Source: Lachnospiraceae bacterium AB2028 (lineage in GTDB: Bacteria > Bacillota > Clostridia > Lachnospirales > Lachnospiraceae). From it: 64,000 bases of DNA. Location: positions 1 through 64,000 of the forward strand of contig KK211276.1 of the NCBI GenBank assembly GCA_000621425.1, in the 5' to 3' direction. How positions within the stretch are numbered: the first letter of the stretch is position 1; each line of letters begins with the position of its first letter. Positions 36,149 to 43,754 of this stretch are shown here, in pieces. A program made the position numbers and the translations under genes. Below the pieces are notes generated by a model, which did not search any database, had not been told where the DNA came from, and was given only the letters and a program-made list of their open reading frames with translations.

Positions 36149-36595
36149 TCAGATAAGGCTCTTCTTTCTTCCTGAATACTTTTTCTTCACATCAAGACGG
36201 TTAAGGGCACGCCTAAGCTTTGCTTCCGCGAGCTGATCCTCGATCCTGCCCTGCTTAAGCTTTATCAGGTCCTTGGCAGCCTTCTCTGATTCCTTCGCCC
36301 TGTTCTCATCTATTTCATCAGGGTCCTCAGCGGACTCCACCAGCACCAAAACCTCACTTGCCTCAACACGCATGATTCCGGCAGAAACCGCTGCATAACG
36401 CATACTGTCCTCCGGATCCTCGTCCTTCCTGTACTTAAGCAGCCCCTCTTTTATCGCTACCACCGCAGACTCATGCCCTGCCATGACGCCGAATTCCCCC
36501 TCAGCCGTGGGCACCGCAAGAAACTCCACCGCACCGCTGAAGAATACGGAACTTGCCTCATATATTTTAAGCTGAAATGAATTTAAGGTTTCCAA
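36149..36595 (-). CDS. atpC: ATP synthase epsilon subunit
   Basis: This 148-residue subunit of the F1 central stalk has the N-terminal beta-sandwich (FQLKIYEASSVFFSGAVEFLAVPTAEGEFGVMAGHESAVVAI) and a C-terminal helical hairpin with a basic tail. It couples rotation and can inhibit ATP hydrolysis. It starts one base before the atpD stop region. Last gene of the operon B-E-F-A-G-D-C. Slightly longer than the usual 130-140 residues. Confidence 0.94.
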   Translation of the reverse strand: METLNSFQLKIYEASSVFFSGAVEFLAVPTAEGEFGVMAGHESAVVAIKEGLLKYRKDEDPEDSMRYAAVSAGIMRVEASEVLVLVESAEDPDEIDENRAKESEKAAKDLIKLKQGRIEDQLAEAKLRRALNRLDVKKKYSGRKKSLI

Positions 36596-38933
<2,338 letters not shown>

Positions 38934-38946
<13 letters not shown>

Positions 38947-40703
38947 TTATCCTCGTAGAATCTCTTTGCAGTTTCAATGATCTGTTCCTTTTCTTCAGGA
39001 GTCATAACGCCGGTCTCATCAATCTTTGCACAGAGTGCAGACTCAGTCATTGAAAAATGTGTAAGCATCTCATCACGGAACTTTATGATCTTTGCCTGTG
39101 GAACATTTTCCATGACATGTGCAATGGCCGCGCAAAGAATAATTACCTGCTCATGCAATGAGAAGGGATGTCCCTGGGGCTGTATCAAAAGTTTCATCAG
39201 TCCCTGACCATAATTAAGCTGTTTCTTTGTAGCCTCATCTAAGTCACTGGAAAACTGTGTGAACACTTCCATTTCCCTATACTGTGCAAGGTCAAGCCTT
39301 AAACTTCCAACAGCCTTTTTCATAGCCTTTGTCTGGGCAGCGCCGCCCACACGGGATACTGACAGGCCGACATTGACAGCTGGCCGCTGACCGGCAAAGA
39401 AAAGGTCGCTTTCCAGGAAAATCTGTCCATCCGTTATGGAAATAATATTAGTGGGTATGTATGCAGAAACATCTCCTGCCTGTGTCTCGACTATGGGAAG
39501 TGCAGTCATGCTGCCTCCGCCTATGGCATCAGAAAGCCTTGCAGACCTCTCTAACAGCCTTGAATGCAGATAGAATACATCACCGGGATAAGCTTCTCGA
39601 CCCGGAGACCTCTCAAGCAAAAGTGACAATGCCCTGTATGCTATGGCATGCTTGGACAGGTCATCGTAGATTATGAGCACATCCTTGCCCTGATACATGA
39701 AATATTCACCAAGGGCAGCTCCGGCATAAGGTGCAATATACTGTACCGGCGCTGTCTCAGATGCAGAAGCGGAAACCACTATGGTATATTCCATTGCCCC
39801 CTGTTTCTTAAGATTACCAACTATATGGGCCACACTGGATGACTTCTGTCCGATTGCAACATATATGCAGATAACACCATTGCCCTTCTGGTTCAATATG
39901 GTATCCGTAGCAATGGTGGTCTTTCCTGTCTGCCTGTCTCCGATTATTAATTCTCTCTGGCCCCGTCCTATGGGAAACATTGAATCGATGGAAAGCAAGC
40001 CCGTATTCATAGGGGTATCCACACCCTGACGGGACACGATATCCGGAGCCGGGGATTCTATGGCGCGATAACCCACAGCCTTTATCTTGCCCTCTCCGTC
40101 TATAGGCTCACCAAGGGCATTAACTACCCTTCCTATGTATGCGTCACCCACAGGTATTCCTGCGGTCTTTTTGGTACGCCTTACCCTGCTGCCTTCCGTA
40201 ACATCCGTATCGTCACCGAAAAGTATGATACCGACACAGTCAGGCCTAAGGTCCTGCACCATGCCTTTTACGCCGGATTCGAAAATTACGATCTCGCCAT
40301 ATACTGCACTGCGAAGTCCCTCTGCCAGAACAATGCCGTCACCGACTGTCAGTACGACACCTTCCTCCTCCGGACGGACATGGGCCTCCCAGGAATCGAT
40401 TGACGACTTGAAAAGAGTAATGACATCAGACTCTTCGTCATCATACCTTGCCGCTATCTCATCCAGCATGTCGGCTAACTGCCTGTACCTGCCTTCACGG
40501 GTCCAGTCATATACTTCACCGCCGGCCTCAAGCCTGAAACCGTTTCCCACAGTCTCATCTTTTTTCCAGACAAGCTCGAATTCCTCGCCCTGTTCCTTTA
40601 AAAGAAAAGTTTCAAAGCGTTTCTTTTGCTTAGCATCAGGCGAAACAGCACTGTAAATGTATGCCTCTTTTTTTGAAACAGCTGAGGTCTTACTTTCTTC
40701 CAT
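38934..40703 (-). CDS. atpA: ATP synthase alpha subunit with fused delta-like N-terminal domain
   Basis: This 589-residue protein is about 85 residues longer than typical alpha (about 505). Residues 95-589 are normal alpha: TVGDGIVLAEGL, the alpha P-loop GDRQTGKTT and the LGEYFMY motif. Residues 12-84 align by eye with the C-terminal domain of the delta subunit (AtpH): Y-S-A-V, then a Lys-Lys-Asp with a Gly-rich bend, EVYD, and EGRYRQLADML where E. coli delta has a GRLERLADVL end. The longer frame reaches 40739, but GGAGG eight bases before ATG 40701-40703 selects this start. No separate atpH exists between atpF and atpA, which overlap by 14 bp. Confidence 0.94.
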
Positions 40704-41196
40704 CAGAATTTCCTCCGTCAGAACTCTTTTCTGCCTCATCTAAGAATGAATCAAAAGATGATCCGCCCTCGCTGTCAAGCATTATCTTGCGGGTAGCTTC
40801 TTCTATCATCTTGGAGATGTCTTCCTTTGCGCCCTCCACAATGCCTTTCTTCTTTCTTTCGCCTTCAGCCTTAGCCTCTGCAATAACGGTTTCAGCCTTC
40901 TTCTTAAGGCTTTCTTCTTCAGTCTTACGCATTTCAGCGATTTCAGCCTGGGCAGCGCTCATCTTAGCTTCCACTTCCTCATCAGCCTTATCCATTGCAG
41001 CAGTATATTCTGCCTTTAATGCCTTAGCCTCATCCAGTGTCTTCTTTGCCTGCTCGTCCATTTCACGATAATGATCCTCACGCTTCTGGATAAAATCCTT
41101 TATAGGCTTGTATAAAAGGATGTAAAGCCCTCCAAAGAGAAGGATTATATTGAAAAGGTGCAGGAATATCTGCATAAAATCGATTCCGAGTATCAT
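40690..41196 (-). CDS. atpF: ATP synthase b subunit
   Basis: This 168-residue stator subunit has one N-terminal TM helix (FLHLFNIILLFGGLYILLYKP), then the long charged coiled coil characteristic of b, and a Ser/Gly/Asp-rich end. In most bacteria the b C-terminus binds the delta C-terminal domain; here the presumed partner is fused to alpha. AAAGGGG precedes ATG. The start could be the second Met (residue 8). It overlaps atpA by 14 bp. Confidence 0.92.
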   Translation of the reverse strand: MILGIDFMQIFLHLFNIILLFGGLYILLYKPIKDFIQKREDHYREMDEQAKKTLDEAKALKAEYTAAMDKADEEVEAKMSAAQAEIAEMRKTEEESLKKKAETVIAEAKAEGERKKKGIVEGAKEDISKMIEEATRKIMLDSEGGSSFDSFLDEAEKSSDGGNSDGRK

Positions 41197-41220: not shown

Positions 41221-41601
41221 TTACAGTACGAAGATCGCCAGTATCGCAATGATCAATGCATAGATAACTACCGTCTCTATAAATACCAGACCAAGCATCA
41301 TGATGGTCTGTATCTTTCCGCTCATCTCAGGCTGTCTTGCAACACCCTCGCCGCAGCGTCCTACTGCTATACCCATACCGATACCGCCGCCGAATGCCGC
41401 AAAACCTACCGCAATACCTGCACCGATGGCCTTTCCTAAAATATCATTCACCCCTACATTTGCTGACTCTGCAGCTGCTTCAGCAGTAGCTGTGGTGTCT
41501 GCAGCCTGTGCGCTTATTACGCCGGCCACCCCTACTCCTGCCATAACAATGATCATCACTGCAAGTGCGATTGCCATAGTTTTGATTGTCTTTAATTTCA
41601 T
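41221..41601 (-). CDS. atpE: ATP synthase c subunit with signal-peptide-like extension
   Basis: This 126-residue protein contains a normal c subunit (about 52-126): TM1 with GFGGGIGMG-like Gly pattern, the loop RQPE and TM2 with the ion-binding Glu in FIETVVIY. Ahead of it is an extra N-terminus of about 50 residues: basic start, hydrophobic helix (about 9-29) and AQA-AD, which reads as a cleavable signal peptide, then an Ala/Thr/Glu linker. Gln of the classical Na+ site in TM1 is Met here, so ion choice is not clear. GGAGG precedes the called ATG, so the extension is probably translated. Confidence 0.94.
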   Translation of the reverse strand: MKLKTIKTMAIALAVMIIVMAGVGVAGVISAQAADTTATAEAAAESANVGVNDILGKAIGAGIAVGFAAFGGGIGMGIAVGRCGEGVARQPEMSGKIQTIMMLGLVFIETVVIYALIIAILAIFVL

Positions 41602-41646
41602 TTTCTTTTCCTCCGGAATTTTATTTTCTTTTTGTTTGATTGGTCT

Positions 41647-42504
41647 TTATGCTGCTTTTGCTTCTTCTATTGTTTCGTCTGTAGTCGCTTCTTTTTTCTT
41701 TTTCTTCTCCCTTATCTCCGTGACCTCACCGTAGTAGAAACTGGTAAGCATTGTCAGGACATATGCCTGAATGACTGCATGCAACACGGTAAAGAGTACG
41801 CCCACCAGTACCGGCAGTACAAAACTAAGTGTCATATAGTAATAAACTAACTCAGTTGTGAGCATACCTGAAAGCAGGGCACCAAATAACCTGAATGTCA
41901 TTGATATAGGCAGTGAAAATTCCTTAAGTGCATTTCCAACGCCGGCAATTTTATTTGCCGTGACTGCGCCGAATACGATGAACAGATATGAGAAACATCC
42001 TGCCGCTATTGCACCGTTTATGTTTGCAAGGGGTGCCGGCAGCGCCAGTGAATTGCCTGCGGTGGATACAACCTGCAGACCCAAAAGCTCAAACATGGTT
42101 CCCACAAAAATATAGGAACCTATCGCAAAAATATATGCGCCAAGTGCCTTATTCCTATGGGGGCTGTTGGACTTGGCAAGTCCGTCAAAAAGCCCTACCC
42201 ACATCTCTAAAAGCATCTGGAATTTTCCGGGCACGAATTTGAATTTAGGGATAACGAAGATCCTGATTATCAATGCAGCCAGAAGAAGGAAGGCTGTCAC
42301 TATGAAGCCGGAAAGGAGCGAAGGATCGATCTGCATAATACCGAAAATCGATATCTTATTCGTCTCATGCAGCACCGCATCACGCATTACTTCCTTTACG
42401 GTTTCATGCTTTTCAGCATGGAAAGTAAGCACCGTTCCCAAAATGCTAAGCGCAGATAGCACCAGCATTATGACAATGGTTTTTGTCATTTTTTTCTTAT
42501 CCAA
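41647..42504 (-). CDS. atpB: ATP synthase a subunit
   Basis: This 285-residue membrane subunit forms the ion half-channels. The essential Arg is in SMTFRLFGALLSG (usual Asn after Gly is Ala), and the last helices contain HAVIQAYVLTMLTSFYYGE. The C-terminus is Lys/Glu-rich. The frame runs to 42552, but GGAGGGG lies seven bases before a TTG (42502-42504) giving M-DKKKMTKT; the next ATG is too far from the ribosome site. First gene of the operon; no atpI upstream. Confidence 0.93.
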   Translation of the reverse strand: MDKKKMTKTIVIMLVLSALSILGTVLTFHAEKHETVKEVMRDAVLHETNKISIFGIMQIDPSLLSGFIVTAFLLLAALIIRIFVIPKFKFVPGKFQMLLEMWVGLFDGLAKSNSPHRNKALGAYIFAIGSYIFVGTMFELLGLQVVSTAGNSLALPAPLANINGAIAAGCFSYLFIVFGAVTANKIAGVGNALKEFSLPISMTFRLFGALLSGMLTTELVYYYMTLSFVLPVLVGVLFTVLHAVIQAYVLTMLTSFYYGEVTEIREKKKKKEATTDETIEEAKAA

Positions 42505-42551
42505 TTTGGAACCCCTCCGATACAGACAGAATATAATTTTTGCTACATTCA

Positions 42552-42557
42552 ATTATA
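42552..42557 (-). promoter_or_regulatory. probable -10 of the atp operon promoter
   Basis: TATAAT on the minus strand 48 bp before the atpB start. The -35 region is a T run without a clear TTGACA, so the call is tentative. Confidence 0.45.
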
Positions 42558-42672: not shown

Positions 42673-43452
42673 GTGGATAATACATCAAATTCAAATATAC
42701 AAAAAAAGGACAATGCCTTTCTCGCAGGCCTCCGGGACGGCCTCCCCATAGCCTTAGGGTATTTTGCCGTATCATTTTCCTTAGGGATTCAGGCCAAGGA
42801 TGTAGGAATGACCGCATTCCAGGCTGCTGTGATGTCCCTCACAAACCTTACCAGCGCCGGTGAATTCGGAGCCTTAGCCATAATAGGAGCCGGCGGTTCC
42901 TATTTTTCCATAGCCCTTTCACAGCTCATAATAAACCTACGCTACTGCCTGATGAGTTTTGCGCTTTCACAAAAGATCAAGCCGGAAACTCCCACCCACC
43001 ACAGGCTGTTAATGTCCTATGGCATTACGGATGAAATCTTTGGAGTATCAATAGGACAAAAATACCCCCTTTCGCCGTTTTATACATACGGCGCGCTGCT
43101 CCTTACGGTTCCCGGCTGGACCGCAGGAACAGCCATAGGAGTAATGGCAGGCAGCATCCTGCCGGATTCCATCACAAGCGCCCTGAACTTAGCACTGTAC
43201 GGCATGTTTACCGCTGTATTCATCCCTAAATCAAGGGAGGACCTGCGCATATGCACCGCTGTCATCACATCAATGATAGTCAGCTTTGCTGCCACGCACC
43301 TGCCCTATATCAAGGACATATCCGGCGGCACACGGATCATAATTCTTACCGTACTTATTTCATTGATATTTGCAATAATTAAACCCATAGACGACAAGCC
43401 GGAAGATGAAACTGTGACAGACGCTGCAGACGTGACAGGAGATAAGACATGA
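42673..43452 (+). CDS. azlC: branched-chain amino acid exporter, large subunit (AzlC)
   Basis: This 259-residue membrane protein has the AzlC start (AFLAGLRDGLPIALGYFAVSFSLG) and conserved FQAAVMSLTNLTSAGEFG, then several helices. It exports branched-chain amino acids together with AzlD. Start is GTG (42673), seven bases after GGAG. The stop overlaps azlD by 4 bp. Divergent from the atp operon. Confidence 0.9.
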   Translation: MDNTSNSNIQKKDNAFLAGLRDGLPIALGYFAVSFSLGIQAKDVGMTAFQAAVMSLTNLTSAGEFGALAIIGAGGSYFSIALSQLIINLRYCLMSFALSQKIKPETPTHHRLLMSYGITDEIFGVSIGQKYPLSPFYTYGALLLTVPGWTAGTAIGVMAGSILPDSITSALNLALYGMFTAVFIPKSREDLRICTAVITSMIVSFAATHLPYIKDISGGTRIIILTVLISLIFAIIKPIDDKPEDETVTDAADVTGDKT

Positions 43453-43754
43453 ACATCTGGATCTACATAGCCGTAATGGCAATAGTAACATATCTCATAA
43501 GGATGCTCCCCATGACCATCCTGCGGAAAGAAATAAAGAATAAAACCCTCAGGTCATTTTTAGCCTATGTGCCTTATGTCACTCTGACAGTAATGACTTT
43601 CCCTGCCATACTGGGAGCCACCAGGAGCATATACTCTGCCCTTGCAGGCTTTGCAACTGCACTTATAATGTCATACTTCAAAAAAAGCATGATACTGGTT
43701 GCCCTGGTATCATGCGCTGTAGTATTTATAACCGAGCTGATCCTCATTCACTGA
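43449..43754 (+). CDS. azlD: branched-chain amino acid exporter, small subunit (AzlD)
   Basis: This 101-residue protein has three or four helices and the AzlD pattern YLIRMLPMTILRK, FLAYVPYVTLTVMTFPAIL and a late helix. It forms the exporter with AzlC; ATGA overlap couples translation. Its 3' end overlaps the convergent EAL gene by 11 bp. Confidence 0.9.
   Translation: MNIWIYIAVMAIVTYLIRMLPMTILRKEIKNKTLRSFLAYVPYVTLTVMTFPAILGATRSIYSALAGFATALIMSYFKKSMILVALVSCAVVFITELILIH

Follow-up and report, generated by a model that had tools for sequence, protein, structure and literature searches.

Mitochondrial c precursors carry a presequence that is removed before ring assembly, and in the Epsilon- and Deltaproteobacteria c subunits of ~100 aa have signal-like N termini; one NCBIfam c model, PRK08482, has 105 positions. 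In the textbook picture, the bacterial c subunit enters the membrane unprocessed, through YidC and independently of Sec; ordinary c is listed among the YidC substrates (PMC7618853). On the stator side, an engineered Bacillus PS3 FoF1 (PDB 9jc1) has lost the delta N-terminal domain and carries the delta C-terminal domain fused to the front of alpha (deltaDeltaN-alpha). According to the report on this enzyme, it assembles up to three stalks and has an H+/ATP ratio of 5.8 vs 3.0 for the wild type, and the natural cases of the fusion named there are Acidaminococcus fermentans and two UniProt entries (PMC12229609). The passages of that report consulted here are silent on a signal peptide of c, and the open-access literature gave no relevant account of such a peptide for bacterial c subunits. 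The presence of Na+ and H+ ATP synthases together has already been reported for butyrivibrios (PMC11026938, citing Schoelmerich 2020).

The genome of Lachnospiraceae bacterium AB2028 encodes two F-type ATP synthases. The canonical operon (C1, locus L003), as read from its translations with the AtpI-like genes assigned by eye, holds two small AtpI-like genes, a, c, b, full delta, alpha, gamma, beta and epsilon. The second operon lies in the stretch of DNA analysed here (the window; 64,000 nt of contig KK211276.1), in the order a-c-b-alpha-gamma-beta-epsilon (Table 1). Although the two enzymes share the organism and the subunit types, the canonical Na+-type c has 84 aa, carries the Na+ motif GVGQG / GQAVAETTGLY and is without an extension, its delta is separate and full-length, and its AtpI-like genes stand upstream of a. 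There is no atpI-like gene ahead of the window operon, unlike the canonical one, and an azlC-azlD pair (42673-43754, plus strand) starts divergently just upstream. The AB2028 genome also encodes an Ech-like NiFe hydrogenase large subunit (PF00346) alongside the Na+-type ATP synthase; Rnf was rejected as the partner in a Na+ circuit, as the genome has no RnfC above cut-off.

Table 1. Positions in the window of the second atp operon and of the features of its c gene.
Feature	Position	Strand	Evidence
Subunit a gene, start codon uncertain	41647..42552	-	PF00119 60.5 bits
GGAGG Shine-Dalgarno	41610..41614	-	Sequence; 8 nt before ATG of long form
atpE-type gene, F-type subunit c precursor, 126 aa	41221..41601	-	ORF; PF00137 61.1 bits (cut-off 24)
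Predicted signal peptide, residues 1-33, predicted cut after A33 (AQA↓AD)	41503..41601	-	n/h/c regions, A31/A33 conservation, purifying selection, motif test
Acidic Ala/Thr/Glu tail, residues 34-56, net -4	41434..41502	-	Sequence; less constrained than signal or core
c hairpin core, residues 57-126, from K57	41224..41433	-	PF00137, AlphaFold, Foldseek
M76, Gln position of Na+-type c	41374-41376	-	Met invariant in 31 relatives
E109 ion carboxylate	41275-41277	-	Invariant in 31 relatives
Subunit b gene	40690..41196	-	PF00430 51.4 bits
Alpha with fused delta C-terminal domain, 601 aa or 589 aa from second ATG	38934..40739	-	PF00006/PF00306/PF02874 + PF00213 C-terminal half
Delta/OSCP C-terminal domain at alpha N terminus, residues 22-92	40464..40676	-	Family HMM 100 bits; Foldseek
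Gamma subunit gene	38002..38946	-	PF00231 279.7 bits
Beta subunit gene	36596..38005	-	Beta P-loop GGAGVGKT in translation; assigned by eye
Epsilon subunit gene	36149..36595	-	Translation + position; assigned by eye

PF00137 matches residues ~59-121 only of the c precursor, and a 56-residue N-terminal extension stands ahead of the core. The initial annotation had credited this c with about 50 extra residues comprising a basic start, a hydrophobic helix, an AQA-AD site and an Ala/Thr/Glu linker, and all of these can be read in residues 1-56 of the 126-aa ORF: residues 1-33, MKLKTIKTMAIALAVMIIVMAGVGVAGVISAQA, contain three Lys, a hydrophobic stretch and AQA↓AD, and residues 34-56, ADTTATAEAAAESANVGVNDILG, form the Ala/Thr/Glu linker. 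The GGAGG that it had placed before the long start is present as well, and relatives have a GGAGG-like motif before their long c start. A match to PF20187 on the extension (E 0.05) is noise.

The extension is real and conserved, and it is probably a cleaved signal peptide. It has the basic n-region, hydrophobic h-region and small -3/-1 residues of such a peptide, a call that we made by motif rules and shuffles. Residues 2-33 are under purifying selection, both between the window c and that of L065 (dN 0.065, dS 0.57) and between the window c and that of L067 (dN 0.058, dS 0.50). Across 21 c pairs, the first 33 residues usually showed dN well below dS, while the linker was looser and the core tightest. 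In a 10-sequence family alignment, A31 and A33 (-3/-1) together with Met1 were the only positions of the extension to reach at least 90%. When the motif was required as small-or-aliphatic-x-Ala no more than five residues ahead of the first acidic position, this -3/-1 cleavage motif was found in 56 of 58 non-redundant relatives, whereas 1000 shuffles of the same extension residues gave 19.9 on average and 31 at most. This position test was used in place of a more lenient motif test (67/68 observed vs 56 expected), which discriminates too poorly given the high Ala content of the tails. The extension is thus more than chance, as dN/dS, conservation and motif placement agree. Relatives average about +3 in the n-region and about -5 in the tail, and some have textbook-like signals, such as ...LMLILPAYA↓ATADAEQ in L131 and ...AMVSIPAYA↓AGEAD in L139. 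Counting against the assignment, the hydrophobic stretch of the window c is long for a signal, at about 20 residues, and Gly-rich at its end. The initial reading as a signal peptide is therefore well supported by selection, motif and conservation, whereas the Sec insertion drawn from it and the alternative of a third helix are not established. The novelty of the signal alone is lowered by the c subunits of Epsilon- and Deltaproteobacteria, with signal-like N termini like that of the window c in different phyla; the mitochondrial presequence is an import signal, unlike the putative bacterial export signal proposed here.

Among 35 genomes of the genus, 24 encode a window-type c, and the extension is retained in 23 of these 24. 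Its absence from close relatives, which the initial annotation had named as refuting its reading, is thus not seen. A profile scan of genome contigs with the family alignment yielded 509 candidate relatives, of which the best 80 were read, with c starts chosen partly by the GGAGG-like motif. Nearly all of these best 80 of 509 loci, from Clostridia and Mycoplasmatota, carry the extension; they come from Lachnospiraceae, Oscillospiraceae, other Clostridia, Helcococcus sueciensis and Acholeplasmatales/Anaeroplasmataceae MAGs. In contrast, none of the 27 canonical c subunits examined in the genus and family, that of AB2028 itself included, has it (lengths 71-95 residues). The trait therefore marks the second, delta-less F-ATPase and is not general to Lachnospiraceae c. 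Two lineages go without the signal, apparently by loss: in L056, of the same genus, the c is short, with a GTG preceded by GGAGG, and the c of L106 is 90 residues long. Because L106 falls among signal-bearing rows on the alpha tree (a quick tree, with L106 on a long branch), its state looks like a loss. That the hairpin works without the extension in L056 and L106 is as expected of a part that is removed.

The core itself is an ordinary c subunit, with a two-helix hairpin, a polar RQP loop and an ion-binding carboxylate (E109) in helix 2. AlphaFold predicts the hairpin with pLDDT mostly 86-93, and Foldseek matches the model to c-rings. Hairpin core, RQP loop and E109-type carboxylate are common to the window c and the rings 2wie, 6tqj and 1yce, and the core is 42-48% identical to several H+-driven rings; relative to known c-rings, the window c adds the predicted signal peptide and the acidic tail and has Met at the position of the Na+-ligand Gln. 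The helix 1 Gln and full Na+ ligand set of a Na+-type c are not found in it. Since the place of the Na+-ligand Gln is taken by Met76, which is unchanged across 31 relatives, the window enzyme is probably H+-driven.

The window enzyme also differs from the canonical one in its stator. The N-terminal domain of alpha matches PF00213 at positions 97-171 only, its C-terminal half, and PF00213 is likewise matched by this domain in 30 of 30 relatives. The family HMM of the fused domain scores 100 bits on the window alpha and finds the canonical AB2028 delta at 5e-5, and the predicted fold matches delta/OSCP chains in Foldseek. No separate delta for the window enzyme was found, the sole other PF00213 match in the genome being that of the canonical operon. 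With the delta C-terminal domain on alpha and the delta N-terminal domain absent, the arrangement is that of the deltaDeltaN-alpha construct, and the profile match of the window domain to PDB 9jc1 reaches 3.2e-13; however, the PS3 construct is man-made, whereas the window fusion is natural. Among the best 80 of 509 loci, most have one fused delta domain per alpha, 12 have two in tandem (for example L089, L108 and L126), and no delta domain was found in the locus in seven (L091, L100, L101, L109, L110, L118 and L121). Several operons with tandem delta domains have a longer b (about 230 aa). As the c signal is present with 0, 1 or 2 delta domains, it is independent of the fusion. The operon does not have the N-ATPase features atpDC first, AtpQ/R and a TIGR03324-type alpha; the window alpha scores 578 bits against TIGR03324 (cut-off 750.5) and 727 against TIGR00962 (cut-off 484).

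Two other accounts of the extension deserve weighing. An in-frame GTG at residue 51 could in principle let translation start near residue 50, at V51, and leave the extension untranslated. This is extremely improbable, given that the strong GGAGG precedes the long start and none lies at the right spacing ahead of the V51 GTG, that the extension has dN/dS well below 1 with amino-acid features kept across its length, and that relatives have no common start at the place of V51. A translated extension might instead be kept, giving the three membrane helices per c that the initial annotation had foreseen for a retained extension, with the extra helix in the ring lumen or outside the ring. AlphaFold does predict residues 2-36 as one continuous helix, and an Acholeplasmatales/Anaeroplasmataceae-type clade, a single branch on the alpha tree, has a helix without a cleavage motif near its end. 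Yet by simple geometry an inner ring lying one helix diameter further in would hold 2-3 helices at n=9-10 and about 8 at n=15, never n, and helices on the outer face of the c-ring would clash with subunit a; a third helix retained in every c is unlikely for these steric reasons. A kept helix also leaves the conservation of Ala at -3/-1 unexplained, and two natural members, L056 and L106, manage without the helix, so that we hold this account to be distinctly improbable.

The clade without the motif nonetheless bears on how far cleavage extends. It comprises ten loci with a Mycoplasmatota-type c that has an N-terminal hydrophobic helix (L088, L092, L104, L114, L116, L123, L124, L125, L138 and L141), of which the eight that have an alpha group together in a single supported branch of its tree, and the motif lies near the helix end in one of the ten. 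Loss of SPase I as the cause was ruled out, as PF10502 is matched in 10/10 genomes. The helix of these c subunits may be a true anchor or may be cut elsewhere, and since the motif is so rare there despite SPase I, cleavage may not be universal across the branch.

For the window enzyme we conclude that the rotor c of this second, delta-less, probably H+-driven F-ATP synthase very probably bears a cleavable signal peptide. In the maturation that we propose, the basic n-region would remain inside while the hydrophobic stretch inserts into the membrane, the acidic tail would be carried across, and signal peptidase I, for which the AB2028 genome has two genes, would cut after A33 (AQA↓A). The two core helices would then adopt the usual N-out/C-out hairpin, and removal of the signal would thus leave in place the N-out topology known for c. 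The mature c would have 93 residues, a predicted average mass of 9209.8 Da and a 23-residue acidic tail outside; the values calculated without formyl for the intact precursor and for a product starting at V51 are 12493.0 Da and 7710 Da. Probably, the signal lets c take this tail across the membrane; the canonical 84-residue c of AB2028 has no such need. The idea that the tail needs the signal is weakened by L056, which is without the signal yet keeps an acidic tail.

The route of insertion is less constrained. In M13 procoat, a signal that is cleaved off precedes a short acidic outer loop and then a membrane helix. The layout of the c precursor resembles that of procoat, although the latter is a phage coat protein with one mature helix and is not homologous, and a cleaved signal therefore does not prove Sec. 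Because procoat and ordinary c are both listed as YidC substrates independent of Sec (PMC7618853), insertion through Sec, as first proposed, does not follow from the signal. A variant of the favoured account that differs in the route only, in which the precursor is cleaved but inserted by YidC without SecYEG in the manner of procoat, is a serious possibility, if somewhat below an even chance: YidC is encoded in the AB2028 genome, but large hydrophilic regions need Sec (PMC7618853), and the tails of some relatives, up to about 50 residues and quite acidic, favour it. The AB2028 genome holds one ordinary YidC and seven ORFs of about 860-1000 aa with a YidC domain (G000:C5, C4); in the two that were scanned (L146:2569-5121 and L146:10574-13258), the YidC domain is N-terminal and is followed by a weak, below-cut-off sulfatase-like match.

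A wider and more tentative proposal, doubtful at present, is that the c described here forms the rotor of a naturally multi-stalk ATP synthase, in which three delta-bearing alphas would anchor as many as three b2 stalks plus a subunits, with a raised H+/ATP ratio, a cleaved c and an acidic outer collar. If so, the higher H+/ATP ratio of such an enzyme would permit ATP synthesis at low driving force, and the acidic collar may matter for ring assembly or for the feed of protons to several a subunits.

An F-ATPase branch with a probably cleaved c precursor would offer a natural comparison for hairpin insertion, the same cell also encoding a c that is not processed. The same branch bears the stator fusion through which several stalks and a doubled H+/ATP ratio were recently obtained by engineering (PMC12229609). 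Compared with the few cases named there, we find dozens of natural cases, with 0, 1 or 2 fused delta domains, in isolates and MAGs, so that a multi-stalk enzyme can be searched for directly.
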